Source: Bartonella taylorii | GTDB lineage: Bacteria > Pseudomonadota > Alphaproteobacteria > Rhizobiales > Rhizobiaceae | Length of the DNA: 64,000 nt | Direction of reading: 5' to 3' | Assembly: GCF_023920105.1 (NCBI RefSeq) | Contig: NZ_CP083693.1 | Location: 1,257,001-1,321,000 of the forward strand | Notes under the pieces: generated by a model | Seen by the model: only the letters and a program-made list of their open reading frames with translations | Database searches by the model: none | What the model was told of the DNA's origin: nothing | Translations under genes and position numbers: made by a program | Shown here: positions 3,617 to 52,815 of the stretch, piece by piece | Numbering within the stretch: the stretch's first letter is position 1 | Layout of the letters: each line of letters begins with the position of its first letter

Positions 3617-5838
3617 TGTCTGATCTTCTTCTGGAACTTTTTAGCGAAGAAATCCCTGCTCGCATGCAACGCAAAGCTGCTGCTGACCTCAAAAAATCTG
3701 TTACAGATCAACTTGTGAAGGCGGGATTAACCTATAAAGTTGCCTGTGAATATTGGACACCTCGTCGACTAACATTAGACGTACGTGGAATTTCTATGCG
3801 CTCAAAAGATATCTATGAAGAACGCAAAGGACCCAATACAAAATCACCGCAGCACGTAATTGATGGCTTCCTGCGCGCGACAGGACTGAGTAATATTTCT
3901 GAAGCACAGATTGCACATGATAATAAAAAAGGTGATTTTTATATCGCTAAAATCATCAAGAAAGGTCGGAAAGCAGAAGAAATTATTGCCGATATTTTAC
4001 CAAATATTATTCGCAATTTTCCATGGCCAAAGTCTATGCGTTGGGGTGAAGATTCAGCAAAAAGTGGAGTACTAAAGTGGGTTCGATCTTTACAAAACAT
4101 TCTTTGCGTCTTCGGACCAGAAATTGGTGAAACCTATGTTATTCCATTTACAATTGATTCTCTCAAAAGCAATAATCTAACCTATGGTCATCGCTTCTTA
4201 AGTGACGGAAAACCACTCCAAATTCGCCGCTTTGATGATTATATTGCTCAACTTGAAGCCCATAAAGTTATTCTCGATGCCGAAAGGCGAAAGAATATTA
4301 TTTTGGCGGATGCTCAAAATCTTTGCTTCGCAAACGGTTTAGAACTGGTTCAAGATAATGCCCTTTTAGAAGAAATTGCTGGCCTTGTTGAATGGCCTGT
4401 TGTCCTTATAGGTAATTTTGACAAATCTTTCCTTGATATTCCTCCAGAAATCATTCGCTTGACCATTCGAGCTCACCAAAAATGTTTTGTAACCCGTAAT
4501 CAAGGCGAAAAGATCAAGCTCTCTCATCATTTTATTCTCGTTTCTAATATCCTTGCAAGTGATGAAGGAAAAGAAATTTCTAAAGGAAATAGTAAAGTTG
4601 TCTGTGCTCGTCTTTCCGACGCACTCTATTTTTGGCAAACAGACCAGCATAATTTGCCTGATATCAAGCAGTTGGAATCTTCTGCAAAAAAATTTGATCT
4701 TGATTTAAAGAAACCTCTCGATCAAAGGATGGCACGACTTGATCATTTAAATGTAACTTTCCATGCAAAATTAGGTACACAAGGTGCAAGAGTAGAACGA
4801 ATTGCTACCTTAGCACAAAAAATTGCTCCTTTAGTGCAAACGGACCCTCTCTTAGCTAAACGTGCAGCAGTACTTGCAAAAGCTGATTTACAGACAGAAG
4901 TTGTCGGAGAATTTTCTGAACTGCAAGGTCTAATAGGACGAAAATACGCTCTTCTCCAAGGAGAAAGTCCTCGCGTAGCTGAAGCAATTGAAGACCACTA
5001 TAAACCCCTAGGGCCCACAGATCGTGTTCCACATGAACCTCTTGCTATAACCATTGCGCTAGCTGATAAAATTGATACGCTCATTGGTTTTTGGCTCATT
5101 AATGAAAAACCAACCGGTTCAAAAGATCCCTATGCGTTAAGACGAGCAGCATTAGGAATTATTAAGCTTGTTCTTTCGCGTGACTGGAAAATCAATCTTA
5201 TGCCACTGTTTAATCTGGCAACAAATCTTTTTTTACAACAAAAAATAAAACAGGAAATATCTCCAATAGAAACTGAACAGCCGCAGAATATACTTTCAGA
5301 AAAAGTACAATATATTTTAACAGACCTGTTGTCCTTTTTTCATGAACGTTTAAAAATCTATCTAAAAGAAGAAGGTGCTCGTTATGATGCTATTGAAGCA
5401 GTCTTAAACAAAGATGCTGATGACTTTTTGTTAGTCACGCGTCGTGTTGAAGCACTCATTGCTTTTATAAATACAAGTGAGGGAAGCAGCTTTTTAGCCG
5501 CTGTAAAACGCACTGTAAATATTCTTGAAAATGCATTCCCAAAAGGCACCATAATAGCAAACGAAATTACTCCTGAACTCTTTATTGAAAAAGAAGAAAA
5601 ACAGCTTTATCAAGAAATCATTGAGGTAGAAAAAAAAGTTCATAATCACATCAGTGCAATAAATTTATCAGGTGCACTCAATACGCTAGCTCAACTCGGA
5701 AAATTTATCGATATATTTTTCGAAAAAGTATTGGTGAACGATAAAAATCCTGATATTCGCACTAACCGTCTCGCTCTTCTCAAACGTATCCATACCATTA
5801 CAGAAGTAGTAGCAGACTTCTCGAAACTTGTAATTTAA
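3616..5838 (+). CDS. glyS: Glycyl-tRNA synthetase beta subunit
   Basis: 740-residue beta chain of tetrameric glycyl-tRNA synthetase; it contacts tRNA-Gly and carries the anticodon-binding domain. The N-terminus [18 protein letters not shown] is the family signature. The middle has the conserved RLDHLNVTFHAKLGTQGARV segment and the HD-like block AKADLQTEVVGEFSELQG, GRKYALLQGE. The C-terminal anticodon-binding region includes DDFLLVTRRVEAL. It is slightly longer than the roughly 690 residues usual outside Rhizobiales. Its ATG at 3616 overlaps the glyQ stop by one base, so it depends on glyQ translation. It is the last gene of the cluster; downstream is a 576-base non-coding spacer before the convergent atp genes. 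Confidence 0.97.
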   Translation: MSDLLLELFSEEIPARMQRKAAADLKKSVTDQLVKAGLTYKVACEYWTPRRLTLDVRGISMRSKDIYEERKGPNTKSPQHVIDGFLRATGLSNISEAQIAHDNKKGDFYIAKIIKKGRKAEEIIADILPNIIRNFPWPKSMRWGEDSAKSGVLKWVRSLQNILCVFGPEIGETYVIPFTIDSLKSNNLTYGHRFLSDGKPLQIRRFDDYIAQLEAHKVILDAERRKNIILADAQNLCFANGLELVQDNALLEEIAGLVEWPVVLIGNFDKSFLDIPPEIIRLTIRAHQKCFVTRNQGEKIKLSHHFILVSNILASDEGKEISKGNSKVVCARLSDALYFWQTDQHNLPDIKQLESSAKKFDLDLKKPLDQRMARLDHLNVTFHAKLGTQGARVERIATLAQKIAPLVQTDPLLAKRAAVLAKADLQTEVVGEFSELQGLIGRKYALLQGESPRVAEAIEDHYKPLGPTDRVPHEPLAITIALADKIDTLIGFWLINEKPTGSKDPYALRRAALGIIKLVLSRDWKINLMPLFNLATNLFLQQKIKQEISPIETEQPQNILSEKVQYILTDLLSFFHERLKIYLKEEGARYDAIEAVLNKDADDFLLVTRRVEALIAFINTSEGSSFLAAVKRTVNILENAFPKGTIIANEITPELFIEKEEKQLYQEIIEVEKKVHNHISAINLSGALNTLAQLGKFIDIFFEKVLVNDKNPDIRTNRLALLKRIHTITEVVADFSKLVI

Positions 5839-25629: not shown

Positions 25630-26379
25630 ATGTGTATGATGAATGAAACGCGTACCACTATTGATCAGAGTGAAATTGATCACTTTTCGCGTATTGCTGC
25701 TGAATGGTGGAATCCACAAGGGAAATTTCGACCACTTCATCAATTCAATCCGGCACGTCTTTCTTACATTAGAGAAAAGATCTGTTTAGAATTTCATCGT
25801 GATCCTCTTTCACTTATGCCCTTCGAAAATTTGAAAATTCTCGATATTGGTTGTGGAGGTGGTTTGTTATGCGAGCCTATAGCACGCCTTGGCGCTATAG
25901 TTGTAGGAGCTGATGCGGCACAAACGAATATCGAAGTTGCAAAAATCCACGCAGCCCAAAATAACCTTTCAATTGATTACCGCACTACTACTGCAGAATC
26001 CTTAGCCAATGAAGGAGAGCAATTCGATATCATCCTCAATATGGAAGTTGTTGAACATGTGGCTGATGTTAACCTCTTTATAGCAGCCACAGCAAAAATG
26101 CTCAAACCACAAGGGTTGATGTTTGTCTCAACACTCAACCGCACATGGAAAGCATGGGGATTGGCTATTGTAGGTGCTGAATATATTTTACGTTGGCTTC
26201 CAAAAGGAACCCACAATTATAAAAAGTTCCTAAAACCTCAGGAACTTAAAAATCTCTTATCAGAAAATGCTGTGACTGTCATTGATGAGATCGGTATTAC
26301 TTATAATCCATTAAACGACAGCTGGAATCGCTCAAGAGATATGGACGTTAACTATCTGCTTCTTGCAAAAAAGTCTTAG
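25630..26379 (+). CDS. ubiG: Ubiquinone biosynthesis O-methyltransferase UbiG
   Basis: SAM-dependent enzyme that performs both O-methylations of ubiquinone synthesis; 249 residues. The N-terminal signature is [20 protein letters not shown] followed by [11 protein letters not shown]. Motif I is [18 protein letters not shown] (about residue 72), post-I ends with GADAAQTNI, and [12 protein letters not shown] and [12 protein letters not shown] follow. The C-terminal [19 protein letters not shown] is diagnostic. The ATG at 25630 or the one at 25636 may be used. It is convergent with grxC, 8 bases apart. Confidence 0.96.
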
Positions 26380-45431: not shown

Positions 45432-46190
45432 CTAGTGACACTGTGCAGATTGAGTACACATCCCCAGAGCCCAGATTGTAATTAAGTTCGTACCATTCTG
45501 CTCTTTTATAGAGCTAATATTTGAAAATAAATAACCATAATCTTCATATATAATACCCCTAGGCTCAATAATTACCGTAAGCTTATGTAAATCACAACCC
45601 AATTGTGATAATGCCTCATAAATTTTACGAGGGGATTCATCATTGACCGTCACAGCATCGCAGAACGCTGTGGAAGTCGGATATCCCTCGCCTGACTGAT
45701 AAAACTTTTTTTATCCTTCAATGCATAAATATCCTTTCCAACCTTAGTTAAGGTGGATACTATTAACTCAGTCGAATTAGAGCCCACATGCAAAGGCACC
45801 CCATTAAGCCTAATTCTATTGCATTCTAGCAAAGATAATGCGGCACGTAACTCCGCCGCAGTCGTACTAAAACGCGATCTATCCCCGTTTGCCAGTACAT
45901 GGCGCAATCTCAATGAGATTTTAGGCAATATGTCAAAATGGCGGGCAAGAGCGATGATGTCATGTAATTCGATAATATTATCACACTGGACATTTATATG
46001 TTTTCTAATAGATAATTCTATCTCTTCTCGAAGTTTTACAGGGATATTAAAAAATATATCTCTACCTTTAAAACCATCTTTTTGCGCTAATGATATTTCA
46101 TAACCAGACGCAAATTCCAAGTCCCAGCAACATAGCAATGATGCCCCGCACGTCTATTAAAATACCCTGCTTTTTCTCGCCCTAGGCATT
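45432..46190 (-). pseudogene. PLP-dependent decarboxylase (alanine-racemase fold, LysA/ODC group), frameshifted
   Basis: Two frames that overlap at 45650-45653 make one protein. The first reads DLEFASGYEISLAQKDGF, IFFNIPVKLREEIELSIRK, NVQCDNIIELHDIIALARHF, KISLRLRHV and NGVPLHVGSNSTELIVSTL, the order of blocks of fold-type III decarboxylases (ASxxE, K-P-ELxxA, NVES-ELxxL, LRVN, GLHxHIGS). The second gives TVIIEPRGIIYEDYGYLFSN, the EPGR segment that binds PLP phosphate, and INGTNLITI-like sequence. The start with the PLP-lysine (YAxKAN) and the CxxxD end are lost; GHHCYVAGTWNL-like debris continues upstream in another frame. LysA-like, ornithine or MccE/SbnH-type decarboxylases share this fold, so the substrate is unknown. 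Confidence 0.65.
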
Positions 46191-46307
46191 CATAGCCCGA
46201 CCACGTAAAACAGGATACCAATTACAATATCAGACCATAAGGCTGCAAGAGAAAGTTCTTTTATATTTTTATTTTTACATTGCCTCTTAAACAAGCTAGC
46301 CTGTTCA

Positions 46308-46313
46308 TATAAT
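46308..46313 (+). promoter_or_regulatory. Putative -10 box of the minigene/radical SAM operon
   Basis: TATAAT lies 42 bases upstream of the ATG at 46356. Upstream T-rich and TTGCCT/TTAAAC sequences are possible -35 elements, but their spacing is not ideal, so an activator may be needed. Confidence 0.35.
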
Positions 46314-46355
46314 AAGTTATTAATACATATAACTTCTACAAAAAGAGGATTCATT

Positions 46356-46379
46356 ATGTTCCGTGAAAATCTTTGGTAA
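46356..46379 (+). CDS. Seven-residue minigene upstream of the radical SAM gene (candidate leader or precursor peptide)
   Basis: AGAGGA lies 6 bases before an ATG that encodes MFRENLW and stops at TAA. The Shine-Dalgarno is much better than that of the long gene downstream (GTG at 46463). A 6-bp hairpin follows 8 bases after the stop. Size and layout recall mccA of microcin C (MRTGNAN), but this peptide ends in Trp, not in the Asn that MccB enzymes modify, so it may instead be a leader peptide that controls the operon. A chance frame is quite possible. Confidence 0.35.
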   Translation: MFRENLW

Positions 46380-46387
46380 TACACTCG

Positions 46388-46402
46388 GGTGATTGGATCA
46401 CC
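46388..46402 (+). promoter_or_regulatory. Hairpin between the minigene and the radical SAM gene
   Basis: GGTGAT-TGG-ATCACC, perfect 6-bp stem with a 3-base loop; CGGG/CCCG may add an outer stem. No T-run follows, so it is not a standard terminator; it may stabilise the short message or act as an attenuator. Confidence 0.4.
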
Positions 46403-46462
46403 AGTCGCCCGTCAATAGTATAGTGCAAGTTAAGAAATTGGGCGAGGTAAGCTATACAACTC

Positions 46463-47869
46463 GTGGATTATCCTTTTGTGAAGTTCGATCAACTCAAGCC
46501 GATTTACAACTTCACATATCCGTTATTTCGCACTATTTCAAATGAATTTTACGATTACCTAGACTTTAATAAACTAGTACAAAGTAAGCAGATTCCACAA
46601 GCGCGTACCATTTCTCTTTATTTGCATATTCCCTTTTGCCAAACCATCTGTTCCTTCTGTCCCTTTCAGAAAGGGGCCTACAAGCACGTTAAGCAAATCG
46701 AATCTTATATGTCAGCGCTTACCACAAAGATCAGAACCAAAGGAAATTTCATTCGCTCGCTTAGAGGGCCCATCCGCAGCATCTATGGCGGTACACCGTC
46801 GCTTTTGTCCGCAGATAATATCCGACACATCGGAAAAGTATTGCATGCCGAATTTGAGCTCTCTTCCTTAACCGAGTTTACACTGGAAAGCGAACCGAAG
46901 AGCGTCACACGTGATAAACTTTATGCTGCCCGTGAGATCAGCGTTAACCGGATCAGCTTCGGTATACAGAGTTTCATTGAGCGTTTCCGATCATTGTTTA
47001 ACCTCACCTCAACACGTGAACAAATCAACAATACCGTGGCTTGGTCACAAGAGATAATTGGACATGTCGGTTTCGACCTACTATATGGCATGCACAGCCA
47101 GCAAGCCGAAGAACTATTATACGATTTGAAGCAAGCCAGCGAGCTTCATCCTGAAACCATCAATCTCTATGCAATCAACAATCTGGCTATCACGTCACAA
47201 CTGCATAAGTCTTACGCACAAAAAGGGCTAAAGCCATCCAGCCTACAACATCGACAGATGCTTCGCCTATTTAGCGACATCGTTATGCGCAGCTGCGGCT
47301 ATGCGCCGTGTAATGGGCATTCCTATATCAAAATTGCCAATAACACTCCTCTAACGCTCGCTAAAACAAGTTCAGCTAATTATTTCCGCTATCACAAATA
47401 TTTGCATGGTTATCATGACGATTATGTGGTTGGATTCGGAGCGGCAGCACTGTCGATTCTCGGCTCACTCGTCACACGAGCCAATCCCAGTCGAAGCGGA
47501 TACATTACCGACATACAACTTAAAGGCAAATCCAAAGTATACTACAATTGGGTATCAGCGGAGCAACAAGCCTCCAAGGCTTTGTGTATGCGGCTACCTT
47601 ATAACGGCTATGCCAAAAAAGAAAGAATTGACTGGACCGCACTCCCCTCTTTCGTTTACAACAACCTACAACAGCTCATAGTTGCAGGTCTCATCGCAGA
47701 AAGTGATAACGATCTCCAGCTGACTCAGCGTGGTTGGCAATGGTATTCCAACCTTATGTATTTTCTTCTACCTCAGGCAGATAGGAATATCTTGGACGGC
47801 TATGTCGCAAACATACTTAATACAACCGCCGTACTTGATGGACCAGCGGAAACCTGTGTGGCATCTTAA
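46463..47869 (+). CDS. HemN-like radical SAM protein
   Basis: 468 residues. Radical SAM cluster motif CxxxCxxC at Cys59, Cys63 and Cys66 (LYLHIPFCQTICSFCPFQKG), then YGGTPSLLS at 108-116, EFTLESEPKSVTRDKL, NRISFGIQSF and FDLLYGMHSQ, all in the order of the coproporphyrinogen oxidase HemN/HemW/HutW superfamily. The C-terminus has the HemN wing (GYAKKERIDW, LQLTQRGWQWYSNLMYF). Members include coproporphyrinogen dehydrogenase, heme chaperones, heme-cleaving methyltransferases and natural-product C-methylases; the motifs do not decide among them. GTG start after an in-frame stop; weak Shine-Dalgarno. The DNA looks richer in GC than its neighbours, which suggests transfer. An MFS gene follows 10 bases later. 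Confidence 0.8.
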   Translation: MDYPFVKFDQLKPIYNFTYPLFRTISNEFYDYLDFNKLVQSKQIPQARTISLYLHIPFCQTICSFCPFQKGAYKHVKQIESYMSALTTKIRTKGNFIRSLRGPIRSIYGGTPSLLSADNIRHIGKVLHAEFELSSLTEFTLESEPKSVTRDKLYAAREISVNRISFGIQSFIERFRSLFNLTSTREQINNTVAWSQEIIGHVGFDLLYGMHSQQAEELLYDLKQASELHPETINLYAINNLAITSQLHKSYAQKGLKPSSLQHRQMLRLFSDIVMRSCGYAPCNGHSYIKIANNTPLTLAKTSSANYFRYHKYLHGYHDDYVVGFGAAALSILGSLVTRANPSRSGYITDIQLKGKSKVYYNWVSAEQQASKALCMRLPYNGYAKKERIDWTALPSFVYNNLQQLIVAGLIAESDNDLQLTQRGWQWYSNLMYFLLPQADRNILDGYVANILNTTAVLDGPAETCVAS

Positions 47870-47879
47870 GGAGAAAAGA

Positions 47880-49097
47880 ATGTTCACGCTTTTTGCCAAT
47901 AAGAACATACGCTATTTTTGCCTAACCGTTAGTCTGCTCGCCTTACTCAGCGGTGCTTTGCGCACTGCCATCCCGCTATTAGCAAGACAATCTGGATATG
48001 GCGTAGTCGGAGTAAGTTGGGCGCAAGGTCTCTTCTCATTAGCGTGGCCAATTTTCGGCATCCTTGCAGGCACTTTACTTGATCGCTGCGACAAAATAAA
48101 ACTTGCCACCTCGGCTCTCCTCATCTTCATGCTACTGCATATTGTACTGTTCGTACTGCTCATGATACAGATTGCTCCAGCCGAACAAATTTTCTTCTAT
48201 GCAACCATTGCTGGATTCATCGTCGTTTCTGCCGAAGCTTATATAATGACGATTCCACCACTTATCATGGAGGGAGAGCGATTGATGACCTTCTACTCAA
48301 TTGTCTTGTTTTTAGATTTCGGGGTCTCCTCTTTTCTTGCCCCTATCATAACAAGCAGCATTTTAGCGCATAGCACACTGCTATTTCTTGGCCTGTTAAT
48401 CGTGCTTTTTATCACATTGATTTTTACCGCTCGCCGTGCTGTTCCGACATCGCCAACACCTGATAAAGAAAACATCACTTTCCGTTATATCATTGCCGGC
48501 TTTCGTTTCATTTTTTCAAATCGGCATCTTATCTCCCTTACATTACTCACATTCTTTCTATCGGTGGTATTTGGAGCATTCCTAACCTCGTTCATCTTCT
48601 TCGTTACCGACGGTCGGTATCTGGGCCTACATAGCAGCCAATATGGCGTGATGTTTGCAGCCTACGCGCTTGGTACAATGGCAGGTGCCCTATTTGCGCC
48701 ACGTATACGCTATGCACCGGTGCGCCTAGCTGTTCTCATTGACGGTTTAGGAACGGTTGTCTTGCTGCTGATTCCAGCCTTTTCAAAAAGTGCTGTCGTC
48801 GTATGGGGCGTCACCTTTACCGCTGGCGTTGGAGCAAGCTTATGGTTTATTGGTGTTACCGCCTTCAGGCAGCGCCTCACACCAAAGCAACTTCTCGGGC
48901 GAGCTAATTCTGCTTTTCGGGTGATCGGCTATGCTGGAATGCCGGTCGGAAGCTTTTTGGTCGGCGTCCTTGGTTCTTTTATATCATTGCAATTTGCTGC
49001 CGCCTTTATCGCTGGACTACTATTGGTGGCTATCGCGATAACGCTTCCATTTCTTTGGCAGGCTGATCATATAACACCCAACCCTGCAACGAGGTAA
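47880..49097 (+). CDS. MFS transporter paired with the radical SAM protein
   Basis: 405 residues from the ATG at 47880, which has AAGGAG 6 bases upstream, directly behind the radical SAM stop. Twelve hydrophobic helices can be drawn. The N-terminal half carries GILAGTLLDRCDKIKLATSA, the loop 2-3 motif of drug/proton antiporters (GxLaDrxdrkk). The second half starts FRYIIAGFRFIFSNRHLISL, typical of the efflux group close to macrolide and tetracycline-type carriers. Tight coupling means that it probably exports or imports what the radical SAM enzyme makes or uses. Base use is like the radical SAM gene and unlike the core genes. The substrate is unknown. Confidence 0.85.
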   Translation: MFTLFANKNIRYFCLTVSLLALLSGALRTAIPLLARQSGYGVVGVSWAQGLFSLAWPIFGILAGTLLDRCDKIKLATSALLIFMLLHIVLFVLLMIQIAPAEQIFFYATIAGFIVVSAEAYIMTIPPLIMEGERLMTFYSIVLFLDFGVSSFLAPIITSSILAHSTLLFLGLLIVLFITLIFTARRAVPTSPTPDKENITFRYIIAGFRFIFSNRHLISLTLLTFFLSVVFGAFLTSFIFFVTDGRYLGLHSSQYGVMFAAYALGTMAGALFAPRIRYAPVRLAVLIDGLGTVVLLLIPAFSKSAVVVWGVTFTAGVGASLWFIGVTAFRQRLTPKQLLGRANSAFRVIGYAGMPVGSFLVGVLGSFISLQFAAAFIAGLLLVAIAITLPFLWQADHITPNPATR

Positions 49098-50124: not shown

Positions 50125-50880
50125 GCCCCCACTCATCACCGGTACCTCGTTAAACACCACACCAGTCTCAAGGGCGGTAAAATGCGCCTTGCCGCATTTT
50201 AATCTTCAGCATCTCTTTAAGGCGCAAATCAAACTCGCTATTCGTTCCTTTTGTTTACAGTACAAAATAAAGCTTCTGCGCACCATCTTACTCTAAAACA
50301 CCCCCAAATCCAGCGTGTAAGAGCCTATGATCTCACAATTTTAAAGCTCCTTGGCAATTTAAAAAATAATTTTACTTCGGAGGCATTATCATTAATTTTG
50401 CGCAAATTCTTTCTCAATATTATTCTTAATAAACCATATGATCATATACACTCTTCTCACTCACCAAAGCTGTACGCTCTAAATTCGCCAAAAGTTAGCT
50501 ACTTGCAAAACATTCTTGCACACTATAGTCTTGGCCAGCTAGTTTTAAATATTTAATACCAGCAATAGTAAGATTGACATACGCTTTCTTTATCGAGGAT
50601 TTCCTCCGCGCACTCTAAAAAAGCTTGCGTTTTTTTGCAAAATCTAATACGCGCCCACTATTTAGCAAAACATCAATATCACAAGCTTCTTAATATGCTC
50701 GTTCACGATATTTCTGACTAATAGCAGTACAATCATTTAGTGCATTCAAATCGATAAGCATCTCTACTAAAAACGATGGACAGCTATTAATTTCAACTAA
50801 ATCCATAAAGATGACCCACACACTATTTTTTCTTGTGTCTTTATGTAAGTCACAGGCAAGGCCCTATTCAACTGTATCTT
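50125..50880 (-). pseudogene. Type III restriction enzyme (Res) C-terminal fragment, left copy
   Basis: Read on the minus strand with stops and shifts: MDLVEINSCPSFLVEMLIDL at 50805, SQKYRERAY, LLNSGRVLDFAKK, VNLTIAGIKYLKLAGQDYSV at about 50520-50575, then VYDHM.Y and NASEVKLFFKLPRSFKIV. These match the end of Res subunits (GIKYEKI, SVYDH..YDSEVE..FA, VK.F.KLP..FKI). A second, shorter copy of the last part lies at 52431-52815 in the same orientation, with roughly 70 percent identical bases by eye. The MFS/peptide cassette lies exactly between the two. Confidence 0.6.
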
Positions 50881-50885
50881 CACTC

Positions 50886-52136
50886 TCAGACCTCTTCGTT
50901 TTTTATTAACTTTTTATCAGTATAAAGCCAAGCCAAATTAAGCGGAATAATTAAACATATACAAAGCAAGGCGAAACAAAAAGCTGCTTCTATACAAACA
51001 TTATTCGCCAACCAACCAATCAGCACAAGCGCTAAAATACCAAAAATACGTGCAAGAAAACTAACAATGGATAAAACCGTATTTGCATTCTTTTGTTGAA
51101 TATGTTTAAAAAATTCTGCTTCAAACTGCGTCACAGGGACAGAAAAAAAACTGTGAAATACGGTGAATAAAATAATGGGGGCCCAACTGTTTGCAACGAG
51201 AAGCAGAGCAAGCATAACAACAGCACTCAGGACTAGTGAGCACAAAGTTATTACCATAGGAGCATATTTTTGCATAAGATATTTAATTACAAAGCGATTA
51301 AATAAGTATTTTACGAGACTATAAGACACAAAGCACAGGCCAAGAATAAGAATTTTAGTCTTTCCTGTTGCATTGTCTAATACTCCTGTTTGTCCCAAAA
51401 TAAAAGGTTGCCAAAAATGAAATATTGGCTGCAATGCAGCAACAATAAAACCACATATCAATATATAATATAACCCGATCTTTGAGGTAACTAAATAAGC
51501 AAAAGCTTCTGTTGCATGCAACAAAGAACCTGAGTCTATTGGCTTACTACCCGAAACAGATGCAATAGCTATCCCCGTCACCCGACTAAACAAGAATACA
51601 AGCACGAGAAACCCGAAAGAACAAAAATAATATGCTGACTGATAATTATCCATACACAAAACAATAAGAACACCTAGCGCACCAGCAACCATATTCATGA
51701 ATGCCGTTAGTTCCCGTTTATAGGCGTTTACTTGGTGGTAGATCAAACTACCCTTGTAACCACCGCCGTCGATTAAGCCTTTAATCCATGTGCTATCAGC
51801 GCCAGAACATAAAGCAAAGCCTAAAGCATAAATAATTTCTGCCGGAATTAATACAGAAAGATTAGGCGCGTAGATACATAAAAAGAAGAAGAGCGAAAAA
51901 AAGAAACATGATAAGATAACATTTTGTTTAACGCCGATTTTATCTCCTAAAATCCCACAAGGAATTTCAAAAATACAAATAGCTACGCTAAACACAATTT
52001 GCAATAAAGCTAACTGTGTTATACTAACGCCCATAGACAAGAAAAAAAAAGCATGGAAGGAACCTGTAATCAGCCGAACCCCGCTCATTGCCGCACAGCC
52101 ATAGAGCAATTTTTTAACTTCATAATCTATTGTCAT
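50886..52136 (-). CDS. MFS transporter of the peptide cassette
   Basis: 416 residues from the ATG at 52136 (MTIDYEVKKLLYG); a TTG four codons earlier is an alternative. Twelve helices. Helix 2-3 loop: EIPCGILGDKIGVKQNVILS, the usual MFS Gly-x-x-x-Asp-x-x-Gly pattern. The lengthy helix 1 region SGVRLITGSFHAFFFLSMGV and FHFWQPFILGQTGV in the second half resemble the group of MFS proteins that includes exporters next to small peptide genes. It lies 48 bases behind the 40-codon peptide gene, with a hairpin between, and shares its promoter. AT-rich like the genome. MccC of microcin C is an MFS exporter of about 400 residues, so export of a modified peptide is a fair hypothesis. Confidence 0.85.
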   Translation of the reverse strand: MTIDYEVKKLLYGCAAMSGVRLITGSFHAFFFLSMGVSITQLALLQIVFSVAICIFEIPCGILGDKIGVKQNVILSCFFFSLFFFLCIYAPNLSVLIPAEIIYALGFALCSGADSTWIKGLIDGGGYKGSLIYHQVNAYKRELTAFMNMVAGALGVLIVLCMDNYQSAYYFCSFGFLVLVFLFSRVTGIAIASVSGSKPIDSGSLLHATEAFAYLVTSKIGLYYILICGFIVAALQPIFHFWQPFILGQTGVLDNATGKTKILILGLCFVSYSLVKYLFNRFVIKYLMQKYAPMVITLCSLVLSAVVMLALLLVANSWAPIILFTVFHSFFSVPVTQFEAEFFKHIQQKNANTVLSIVSFLARIFGILALVLIGWLANNVCIEAAFCFALLCICLIIPLNLAWLYTDKKLIKNEEV

Positions 52137-52152
52137 TAATATATCCAAAAGC

Positions 52153-52173
52153 TATAAAGCTGCCAGCTTTATA
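52153..52173 (-). promoter_or_regulatory. Hairpin between the peptide gene and the MFS gene
   Basis: TATAAAGCT-GCC-AGCTTTATA, a perfect 9-bp stem with a 3-base loop, 11 bases after the peptide stop and 16 bases before the MFS ATG. A short T-rich GCTTTTGG follows on the minus strand. It may partly terminate or protect the short peptide message, as the hairpin behind mccA does. Confidence 0.55.
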
Positions 52174-52184
52174 TATTTTAAACC

Positions 52185-52307
52185 TCAATTCAGAAGGGAG
52201 CGTCGAGCAGCCATTTTCTGCTCACTTACTTGGGCTTTGAGCACAGTAACATCGACCCGCTTAATTTGAATTTTTTTCAGTGATTTATACATATCTTTAG
52301 TTTTCAT
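52185..52307 (-). CDS. 40-residue peptide gene with C-terminal Asn (candidate microcin C-like precursor)
   Basis: ATG at 52307 with an ideal Shine-Dalgarno, AGGAGG, 7 bases upstream, and a stop TGA at 52185-52187. The peptide begins MKTKDMYKSLKKIQIK, is strongly basic, has no Cys and no membrane helix, and ends MAARRSLLN. Microcin C-type precursors vary widely in length but always end in Asn, the residue that MccB adenylates. The gene has its own promoter with an operator-like dyad, a hairpin just behind the stop, and an MFS transporter next. What is seen: a well-expressed small gene in front of an exporter. What is inferred: that it is a ribosomal peptide-nucleotide precursor. A regulatory leader peptide is the main alternative. 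Confidence 0.6.
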   Translation of the reverse strand: MKTKDMYKSLKKIQIKRVDVTVLKAQVSEQKMAARRSLLN

Positions 52308-52359
52308 AATTTTACCTCCTGTATTAAATGAAAACAATTAAATTTAATATGAAGTACAC

Positions 52360-52391
52360 ATTATAGCTACTTTGTAGCTACCTTTTGTCAA
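52360..52391 (-). promoter_or_regulatory. Promoter with 20-bp spacer and internal dyad (MerR-type layout)
   Basis: On the minus strand TTGACA (plus 52386-52391) and TATAAT (plus 52360-52365) are both consensus but stand 20 bases apart instead of 17. The spacer holds a perfect inverted repeat, TAGCTAC-AAA-GTAGCTA (52364-52380). Over-long spacers with a central dyad are the signature of promoters switched by MerR-family activators, which unwind the spacer. A repressor site is the alternative. The -10 lies 53 bases before the peptide ATG. Confidence 0.65.
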
Positions 52392-52430
52392 TTTATTATT
52401 TTGATATAAAAAGCTTTGCTCTCCTCCTCG

Positions 52431-52815
52431 CGCCCAGATTAAGTATTTCATGCACCAATCATTCTGCAACAACCACCGCCGCACTTGGAAACTCATGCGC
52501 TGCTTCGAGCAAAGTACGCTTATATTCACGCCAATTTGTCACCGGCTGTGCACCACACTTGAACCCATTTCAAGCGCCGCAAAATGCGCAAAATAAAGCT
52601 TTTGTTCGCCCTCACGCTCTAATACCGCCCAATCTGGTGTGTAAGAACCGATTAGCGTTGCAATTTTAAACTCCTTGGCAACTAAAAAAATAATCTTATA
52701 TCAGGATCATTATCGAGATTTTGTGCAAACTTTTTCTCAATACGACTCTCACAAATCACATGATCATAAACACTTTTCTCGTTGACCACCGCCAGCCATT
52801 TGGTCGCCTTTCCCA
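52431..52815 (-). pseudogene. Type III restriction enzyme (Res) C-terminal fragment, right copy
   Basis: Minus strand, in two or three frames: KATKWLAVVNEKSVYDHVIC, ESRIEKKFAQNLDNDPDI, LFFKLPRSLK, then QPVTNWREYKRTLLEAAHEF and PSAAVVVAE, NLGARRRAKLFISK. These are the end of Res, including the part where the PDWA nuclease motif should be (here broken to LGGI). Same strand and clearly homologous to 50125-50880, of which it covers the last half. Confidence 0.6.

Follow-up and report, generated by a model that had tools for sequence, protein, structure and literature searches.

A probable remnant of a long-precursor microcin C operon with a truncated mccB in Bartonella taylorii

A small cassette on the minus strand of Bartonella taylorii DNA is very probably the remnant of a long-precursor mcc operon of the Yersinia pseudotuberculosis type. 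It lies in the 64,000-nucleotide stretch analyzed here, referred to as the window (contig NZ_CP083693.1, positions 1,257,001 to 1,321,000), and consists of an mccA-like gene for a peptide ending in Asn, a hairpin, an mccC-like gene for an MFS exporter, and a stump of mccB (Table 1). Because mccB is cut after about 75 codons, the window locus alone gives no product at the sequence level. In view of the stump, a working unit in the window was rejected, and the locus is accordingly filed as a remnant rather than a working operon. Most likely, production from it is dead and the exporter was retained for some time afterwards, perhaps for self-protection.

Table 1. Features of the cassette and its flanks, in window positions
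Feature	Position	Strand	Basis
PF19778 endonuclease-domain fragment upstream of the cassette	52586..52780	-	repeats, blastn, PF19778 on a relative
Promoter-like hexamers TTGACA / TATAAT, 20-nt spacer with dyad	52360..52391	-	sequence
AGGAGG ribosome-binding site	52315..52320	-	sequence
mccA-like 40-aa precursor gene, Asn at end	52185..52307	-	ORF, genus comparison
9-bp hairpin between mccA and mccC	52153..52173	-	sequence
mccC-like MFS exporter, 416 aa	50886..52136	-	open frame, MFS_1, homologues, structure model
mccB N-terminal stump, ~75 codons, frame change near 50809 and in-frame stop	50657..50883	-	tblastn of P0012, P0013, P0014
Second fragment of the PF19778 domain, downstream of the mccB deletion junction	50263..50466	-	repeats, blastn

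Results

The exporter gene is followed by a stump of mccB

The sequence-only reading of this DNA had reported that the window lacks a ThiF/MccB-like gene, which proved to be wrong. Three bifunctional MccB-like proteins, from Bartonella (P0012), Serratia (P0013) and Yersinia similis (P0014), were used as tblastn queries. Directly 3' of the MFS gene, a stump was detected that is 90% identical to P0012 over the 48 N-terminal residues of that protein; no other parts of mccB were found at the locus with the three queries, and of a ThiF-type MccB the window holds this N-terminal piece only. P0012, from an unclassified Bartonella, has 550 aa with a ThiF domain and a methyltransferase domain, and among solved structures those of MccB are closest to it (E 6.4e-27). 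Compared with the Serratia protein, P0012 has an annotated start displaced inward by about 26 residues, indicating that P0012 may itself lack its N-terminus.

The same reading had proposed looking for MccB in related Bartonella, and mccB-like genes do exist in genomes that bear the cassette. Of the 18 cassette genomes, 17 have the stump behind the MFS gene; it was not found in G025. The same deletion junction is present in nine of the 18 (G000, which is the present genome, G021, G040, G054, G056, G026, G020, G051 and G050), a second common junction is shared by G055, G067 and G066, and the other genomes differ. About 100 codons of mccB are retained in G018 (locus L059), and longer but broken copies are found in G036 (L065), with ThiF and methyltransferase parts, and in G032 (L061). 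The L065 piece is 43% identical to a Y. similis protein and is followed by a CmoA-like (mccS) fragment that matches TIGR00740 (E 1.8e-23; 83.5 bits, short of the 193.3 cut-off, covering the final 102 of 239 positions). Similarly, L061 has an ORF resembling this CmoA-like piece.

The MccB of Y. pseudotuberculosis has two functions, and its MccS acts as a cxSAM synthase (PMC9239234). The long broken mccB and the CmoA-like fragment in the relatives thus point to the long-precursor, carboxymethyl-cytidylate type of Y. pseudotuberculosis, and the broken methyltransferase-MccB and CmoA-like copies in L065 support a probable cytidylate-type ancestry. They do not support a present function of this kind in the window, where the methyltransferase part of a Y. 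pseudotuberculosis-type MccB is gone and the only methyltransferase match, near 25800-26270, is distant and unrelated. DNA of the relatives from beyond the mccB junction gave no match at the window locus. Elsewhere in the genome, a search for an intact cytidylate-type mccB with the ThiF-methyltransferase piece gave only 26-27% matches. Serratia-type MccB was found in 0 of 398 genomes of the phylum, a count that says nothing about absence.

The ancestral operon would have had the order mccA - hairpin - mccC - mccB (nucleotidyltransferase fused to methyltransferase) - mccS. In such an operon, a 40-residue peptide would have been made, MccB would have attached a nucleotide (probably carboxymethyl-cytidylate) to the Asn at its end, and the product would have been exported via MccC.

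The surroundings of the cassette are full of gene fragments. Two restriction-enzyme fragments of the PF19778 domain, which was found on the relative L059 at 4210-4671, form direct repeats about 2.32 kb apart that flank the cassette; our reading is that they come from a type III restriction enzyme. The mccB deletion is close to one of them.

The precursor gene keeps its Asn-stop but little else

A 40-codon basic peptide gene ending in Asn, with an ideal AGGAGG site in front of it, had been proposed from the sequence, and both features were confirmed. The ORF has 40 codons plus a stop, a net charge of +8 and Asn as its final codon, and it recurs in 17 of 71 Bartonella genomes, all within the 18 that carry the window-type MFS gene. 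AGGAGG (52320-52315) sits 7 nt upstream of ATG 52307 and is exact in 12 of the 17 peptide-bearing genomes. The proposed consensus promoter with a dyad held up in part: the hexamers TTGACA (52391-52386) and TATAAT (52365-52360) are exact and the dyad TAGCTAC-AAA-GTAGCTA lies at 52364-52380, but the hexamers are 20 nt apart, and the pair was not called by a promoter scan for spacers of 16-18 nt. The intervening stretch is shorter in six of the 17 genomes (G052, G032, G056, G068, G020 and G050). Upstream of the peptide gene, a segment of about 130-155 nt has two or more matches in each of the relatives L010 and L014, as if tandem-duplicated.

Homologues of the peptide, another suggested check, end in Asn wherever the 40-aa frame is intact (7 of the 17 genomes). 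In G067, a 39-aa frame is shifted midway and still ends in Asn; the frame is broken in the remaining 9 of 17. Eight of nine database homologues, partly the same sequences as the genome set, are 40 aa long with a terminal Asn, and the ninth (38 aa, no terminal Asn) looks frame-shifted. Within the 123-nt peptide region aligned across 17 genomes, 53 columns are invariant, and AATTGA, encoding Asn and the stop, is the sole fully invariant 6-nt window of 118. Frames of 13-14 aa with an Asn end in G052, G021 and G054, arising from A-tract indels, were set aside as chance; AAT-TAA is already present in a shifted frame of the common sequence, so three Asn-ended indel events are weak evidence.

Among the seven intact frames, pN/pS of the peptide was 0.94 (bootstrap 0.55-1.96). 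A value near 1 with such wide limits gives no evidence of general constraint, and the coding status of the gene therefore rests on its position, ribosome site, length and Asn-stop. We conclude that mccA here is unconstrained or weakly constrained. Family searches with the peptide against Pfam and NCBIfam gave no match.

A hairpin separates the peptide gene from the exporter gene

The perfect 9-bp hairpin that had been seen after the peptide gene is present as TATAAAGCT-GGC-AGCTTTATA. It is the shortened form of a longer layout, usually a stem of 15 bp capped by an A-rich loop, that is kept by 15 of the 17 genomes; G000 and G021 lack the top of the stem and have 9 bp left. G056 has the long layout, but its predicted fold is lost. 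Across the 15 long rows, 96.4% of cells pair, no pair is altered on both sides, and a shuffled control reaches the same pairing values, so that conservation rather than covariation supports the hairpin. RNAalifold was run on all 17 rows, an alignment spoiled by two rows with deletions. Rfam at the gathering threshold gave tRNA only.

The exporter gene encodes a putative MccC

The MFS frame is open over 50886-52148 (from TTG 52148), and homologues place its start at ATG 52136, giving 416 aa. An intact 12-helix MFS transporter had been read here: the open frame was confirmed, and a structure model has about 12 long helices (mean pLDDT 76.9, pTM 0.77, 8 sequences), but a simple hydropathy count gives eight membrane segments. 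For the helix number, we place more trust in the model, which also matches solved MFS transporters, NorA among them.

In a genus-wide search at E<=1e-10, MFS matches were obtained in 35 of 71 Bartonella genomes. The window-type gene is present in 18 of the 71, with a best piece of 66-100% identity, and the non-window-type matches have roughly 25-47% identity. Beyond Bartonella, the nearest named relatives belong to Serratia fonticola (55%) and Pantoea cypripedii (50%). Among 72,556 plasmid records, the protein matched 29 at E<=1e-5, all from E. coli or Salmonella, with about 32-34% identity; 28 of these 29 plasmids were also among the best 30 of 32 ThiF matches in a companion search. The sole plasmid examined, NC_010257 (MccC7-H22, annotated as a microcin C7 plasmid), carries consecutive genes for ThiF, MFS, methyltransferase and GNAT proteins. 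Judged from these sequence relationships, the protein is a putative MccC-type MFS exporter.

An ordinary drug or metabolite exporter beside a small ORF that is there by chance or as a leader peptide, with a merely coincidental likeness to microcin loci, would also be compatible with the family searches, in which the MFS protein matches only the general MFS_1 (45.1 bits, cut-off 33.4), all NCBIfam matches fall below cut-off and the peptide has no family match; the MFS fold is moreover a common one. This explanation is largely refuted by the mccB stump, which lies behind the MFS gene in all but one of the cassette genomes, and the ThiF matches on nearly all of the matched plasmids and the unique invariance of the Asn-stop also speak against it. 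We regard it as very improbable. Of the earlier proposal, namely a precursor-plus-exporter part of a peptidyl-nucleotide system or a remnant of one, the remnant has gained support from the stump, the plasmid matches and the mccB and CmoA-like pieces of the relatives, and the working unit has been discarded.

The exporter gene bears a signature of purifying selection in the shared-deletion genomes

The MFS gene has an open stretch of at least 400 aa in 10 of the 18 cassette genomes and is broken below 400 aa in the other 8. It is full-length without a stop in seven (G000, G036, G040, G052, G055, G026 and G018); the first ~32 codons are out of frame in G021 and G066, and the G067 copy has one internal stop in the match, near an end. 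In pairwise comparison with G000, the nine other copies that keep 400 aa or more open gave pN/pS values of 0.14-0.27, and seven broken copies gave 0.16-0.34, a fragment in G051 being excluded. Pooled over the shared-deletion genomes with at least 400 aa open (G000, G040, G026 and G021), pN/pS was 0.24 (bootstrap 0.16-0.34); in the broken shared-junction copies (G054, G056, G020 and G050), it was 0.34 (0.26-0.44). The MFS gene thus shows purifying selection in the shared-deletion genomes, a signal that the peptide lacks.

If the mccB deletion goes back to a single inherited event, selection on the pump continued beyond the loss of mccB. The common junction could, however, have spread by recombination rather than inheritance, and the pN/pS values of broken and kept copies overlap, so that selection acting on the pump today is unproven. 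The locus as a whole might thus be neutral mcc debris, with the MFS frame open only because too little time has passed. Such debris would agree with this overlap, with an MFS gene broken in 8 of 18 genomes and a peptide broken in 9 of 17, and with the gene fragments all around. It agrees less well with the low pooled value in the shared-deletion genomes, which drift since a single inherited deletion would not give, or with MFS frames kept beside several different mccB lesions. We assign neutral debris a considerable chance, short of even; it contests the kept pump alone and overlaps the rest of our best explanation. Whether the function of the pump was kept stands at about even odds. A pump so kept probably exports, or recently exported, peptidyl-nucleotides or similar compounds, which would amount to self-protection.

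An MccE-like gene lies beside the cassette in some relatives

In 6 of the 18 cassette genomes (G018, G026, G020, G050, G051 and G056), a gene for an MccE-like protein lies 1.35-1.7 kb downstream of the MFS gene. The protein has 589 aa with decarboxylase and acetyltransferase parts, and its best solved relative is MccE (E 3.4e-48); the orthologs beside the cassette are 89-100% identical, and the G056 copy carries one stop. In the present genome, the best match to this MccE-type immunity protein is a 37% fragment at 45773-46117 of the window. The surrounding stretch (45516-49097) has this PLP-dependent decarboxylase fragment, 37% identical to the MccE-like protein, together with an open HemN/HutW-like radical SAM gene and an EntS-like MFS gene, and recurs in several relatives at 93% DNA identity.

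It is possible, though in our view rather unlikely, that after repeated loss of mccB the exporter was retained, in some species along with the MccE-like acetyltransferase, to serve by itself as a shield against peptidyl-nucleotides. If this is true, the shield would act against peptidyl-nucleotide antibiotics of kin or of the bacterium's own heptapeptide operon, and immunity would outlive production.

The genome has a separate heptapeptide operon and a third ThiF cluster

A ThiF search of the genome gave three places besides the window. The first (L001) has a 248-aa ThiF-family gene that we read as MoeB-like. The second (L002, G000:C1:279059-282772) is an mcc locus of its own, of the heptapeptide kind, with its genes open and in the order A-B-C: a ribosome site and MDHMGCN are followed by a 358-aa MccB and a 431-aa MFS gene. 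This MccB is 46% identical to E. coli MccB, and its best solved relative is MccB (E 4e-108). A hairpin after MDHMGCN was seen by eye. In an automatic scan that recovered MRTGNAN in E. coli as a control, an MD....N heptapeptide was found at the corresponding position in 10 of 19 Bartonella genomes with a whole or fragmentary copy of this MccB; for one of these 19 the identity is only 33%.

The third place (L003, G000:C1:1892182-1895853) is another ThiF-based cluster, broken in this genome, whose members are a 371-aa ThiF protein, a 386-aa MFS protein and an ATPase-like protein of about 248 aa (Walker motif by eye). Its 35-aa peptide ends in ...ICDSLLS or ...ICDFMAS, without an Asn end, and its ThiF and MFS frames are open in the relatives L073 and L089. 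This cluster may be the more novel lead.

Completion of the window cassette by one of these ThiF genes was considered and rejected, the first being MoeB-like, the second part of the heptapeptide operon and the third broken. In particular, a working unit could be imagined in which the L002 MccB modifies the 40-aa peptide in trans and the window MFS protein exports it, given a second mcc locus in the genome with MDHMGCN, MccB and MFS genes, and given that the 40-aa and MFS frames of the window are both open. By contrast, L002 comes with a short precursor and an exporter of its own, the latter only 31% identical to the window MFS protein; MccB is reported in a review to be strict about MccA (PMC12250964); and the 40-aa peptide has no sign of purifying selection, its frame being broken in 9 of 17 genomes. 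Modification in trans has very little chance of being correct, and a remnant remains our reading of the locus.

Discussion

Taken by itself, the window gives a modest result, a remnant. Its interest lies in the set of loci to which it belongs: many stages of decay stand side by side in 18 genomes, here alongside a separate heptapeptide operon, providing a natural experiment on whether genes for export and immunity persist once antibiotic production has ceased. Microcin operons in Bartonella are already published, and Bartonella washoensis is said to be listed among mcc carriers. The present locus adds a long-precursor, probably cytidylate-type mcc locus to this genus; no report of such a locus in Bartonella was found among the literature matches listed, a set in which subscription journals are mostly uncovered.

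Microcin operons of Bartonella were described as inactivated in B. quintana and B. henselae in PMC10949449, and the present cassette resembles them in that microcin production has decayed. The heptapeptide operon at L002 likewise has an Asn-ended precursor and an MFS gene related to that of the window, but differs in its seven-residue MDHMGCN, its 358-aa MccB and the order A-B-C. With E. coli microcin C7 (mccABCDE, NC_010257), the cassette shares an Asn-ended precursor, an MFS exporter (32% identical, with 65% of the query aligned) and a hairpin between mccA and the next gene, where microcin C7 has a terminator (PMC6495379). The E. coli system differs in its heptapeptide precursor and in a ThiF gene placed before the MFS gene; in addition, its MccB lacks the methyltransferase domain (PMC9239234).

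The mcc system of Y. pseudotuberculosis has a precursor of 42 residues, of which the product retains 11, as stated in PMC6495379. The Bartonella cassette differs from it in that mccB is a stump and the precursor has 40 aa rather than the 42 reported there. It resembles the Y. pseudotuberculosis system in its long Asn-ended precursor and, in the Bartonella relatives, in a bifunctional MccB and a CmoA-like mccS piece.
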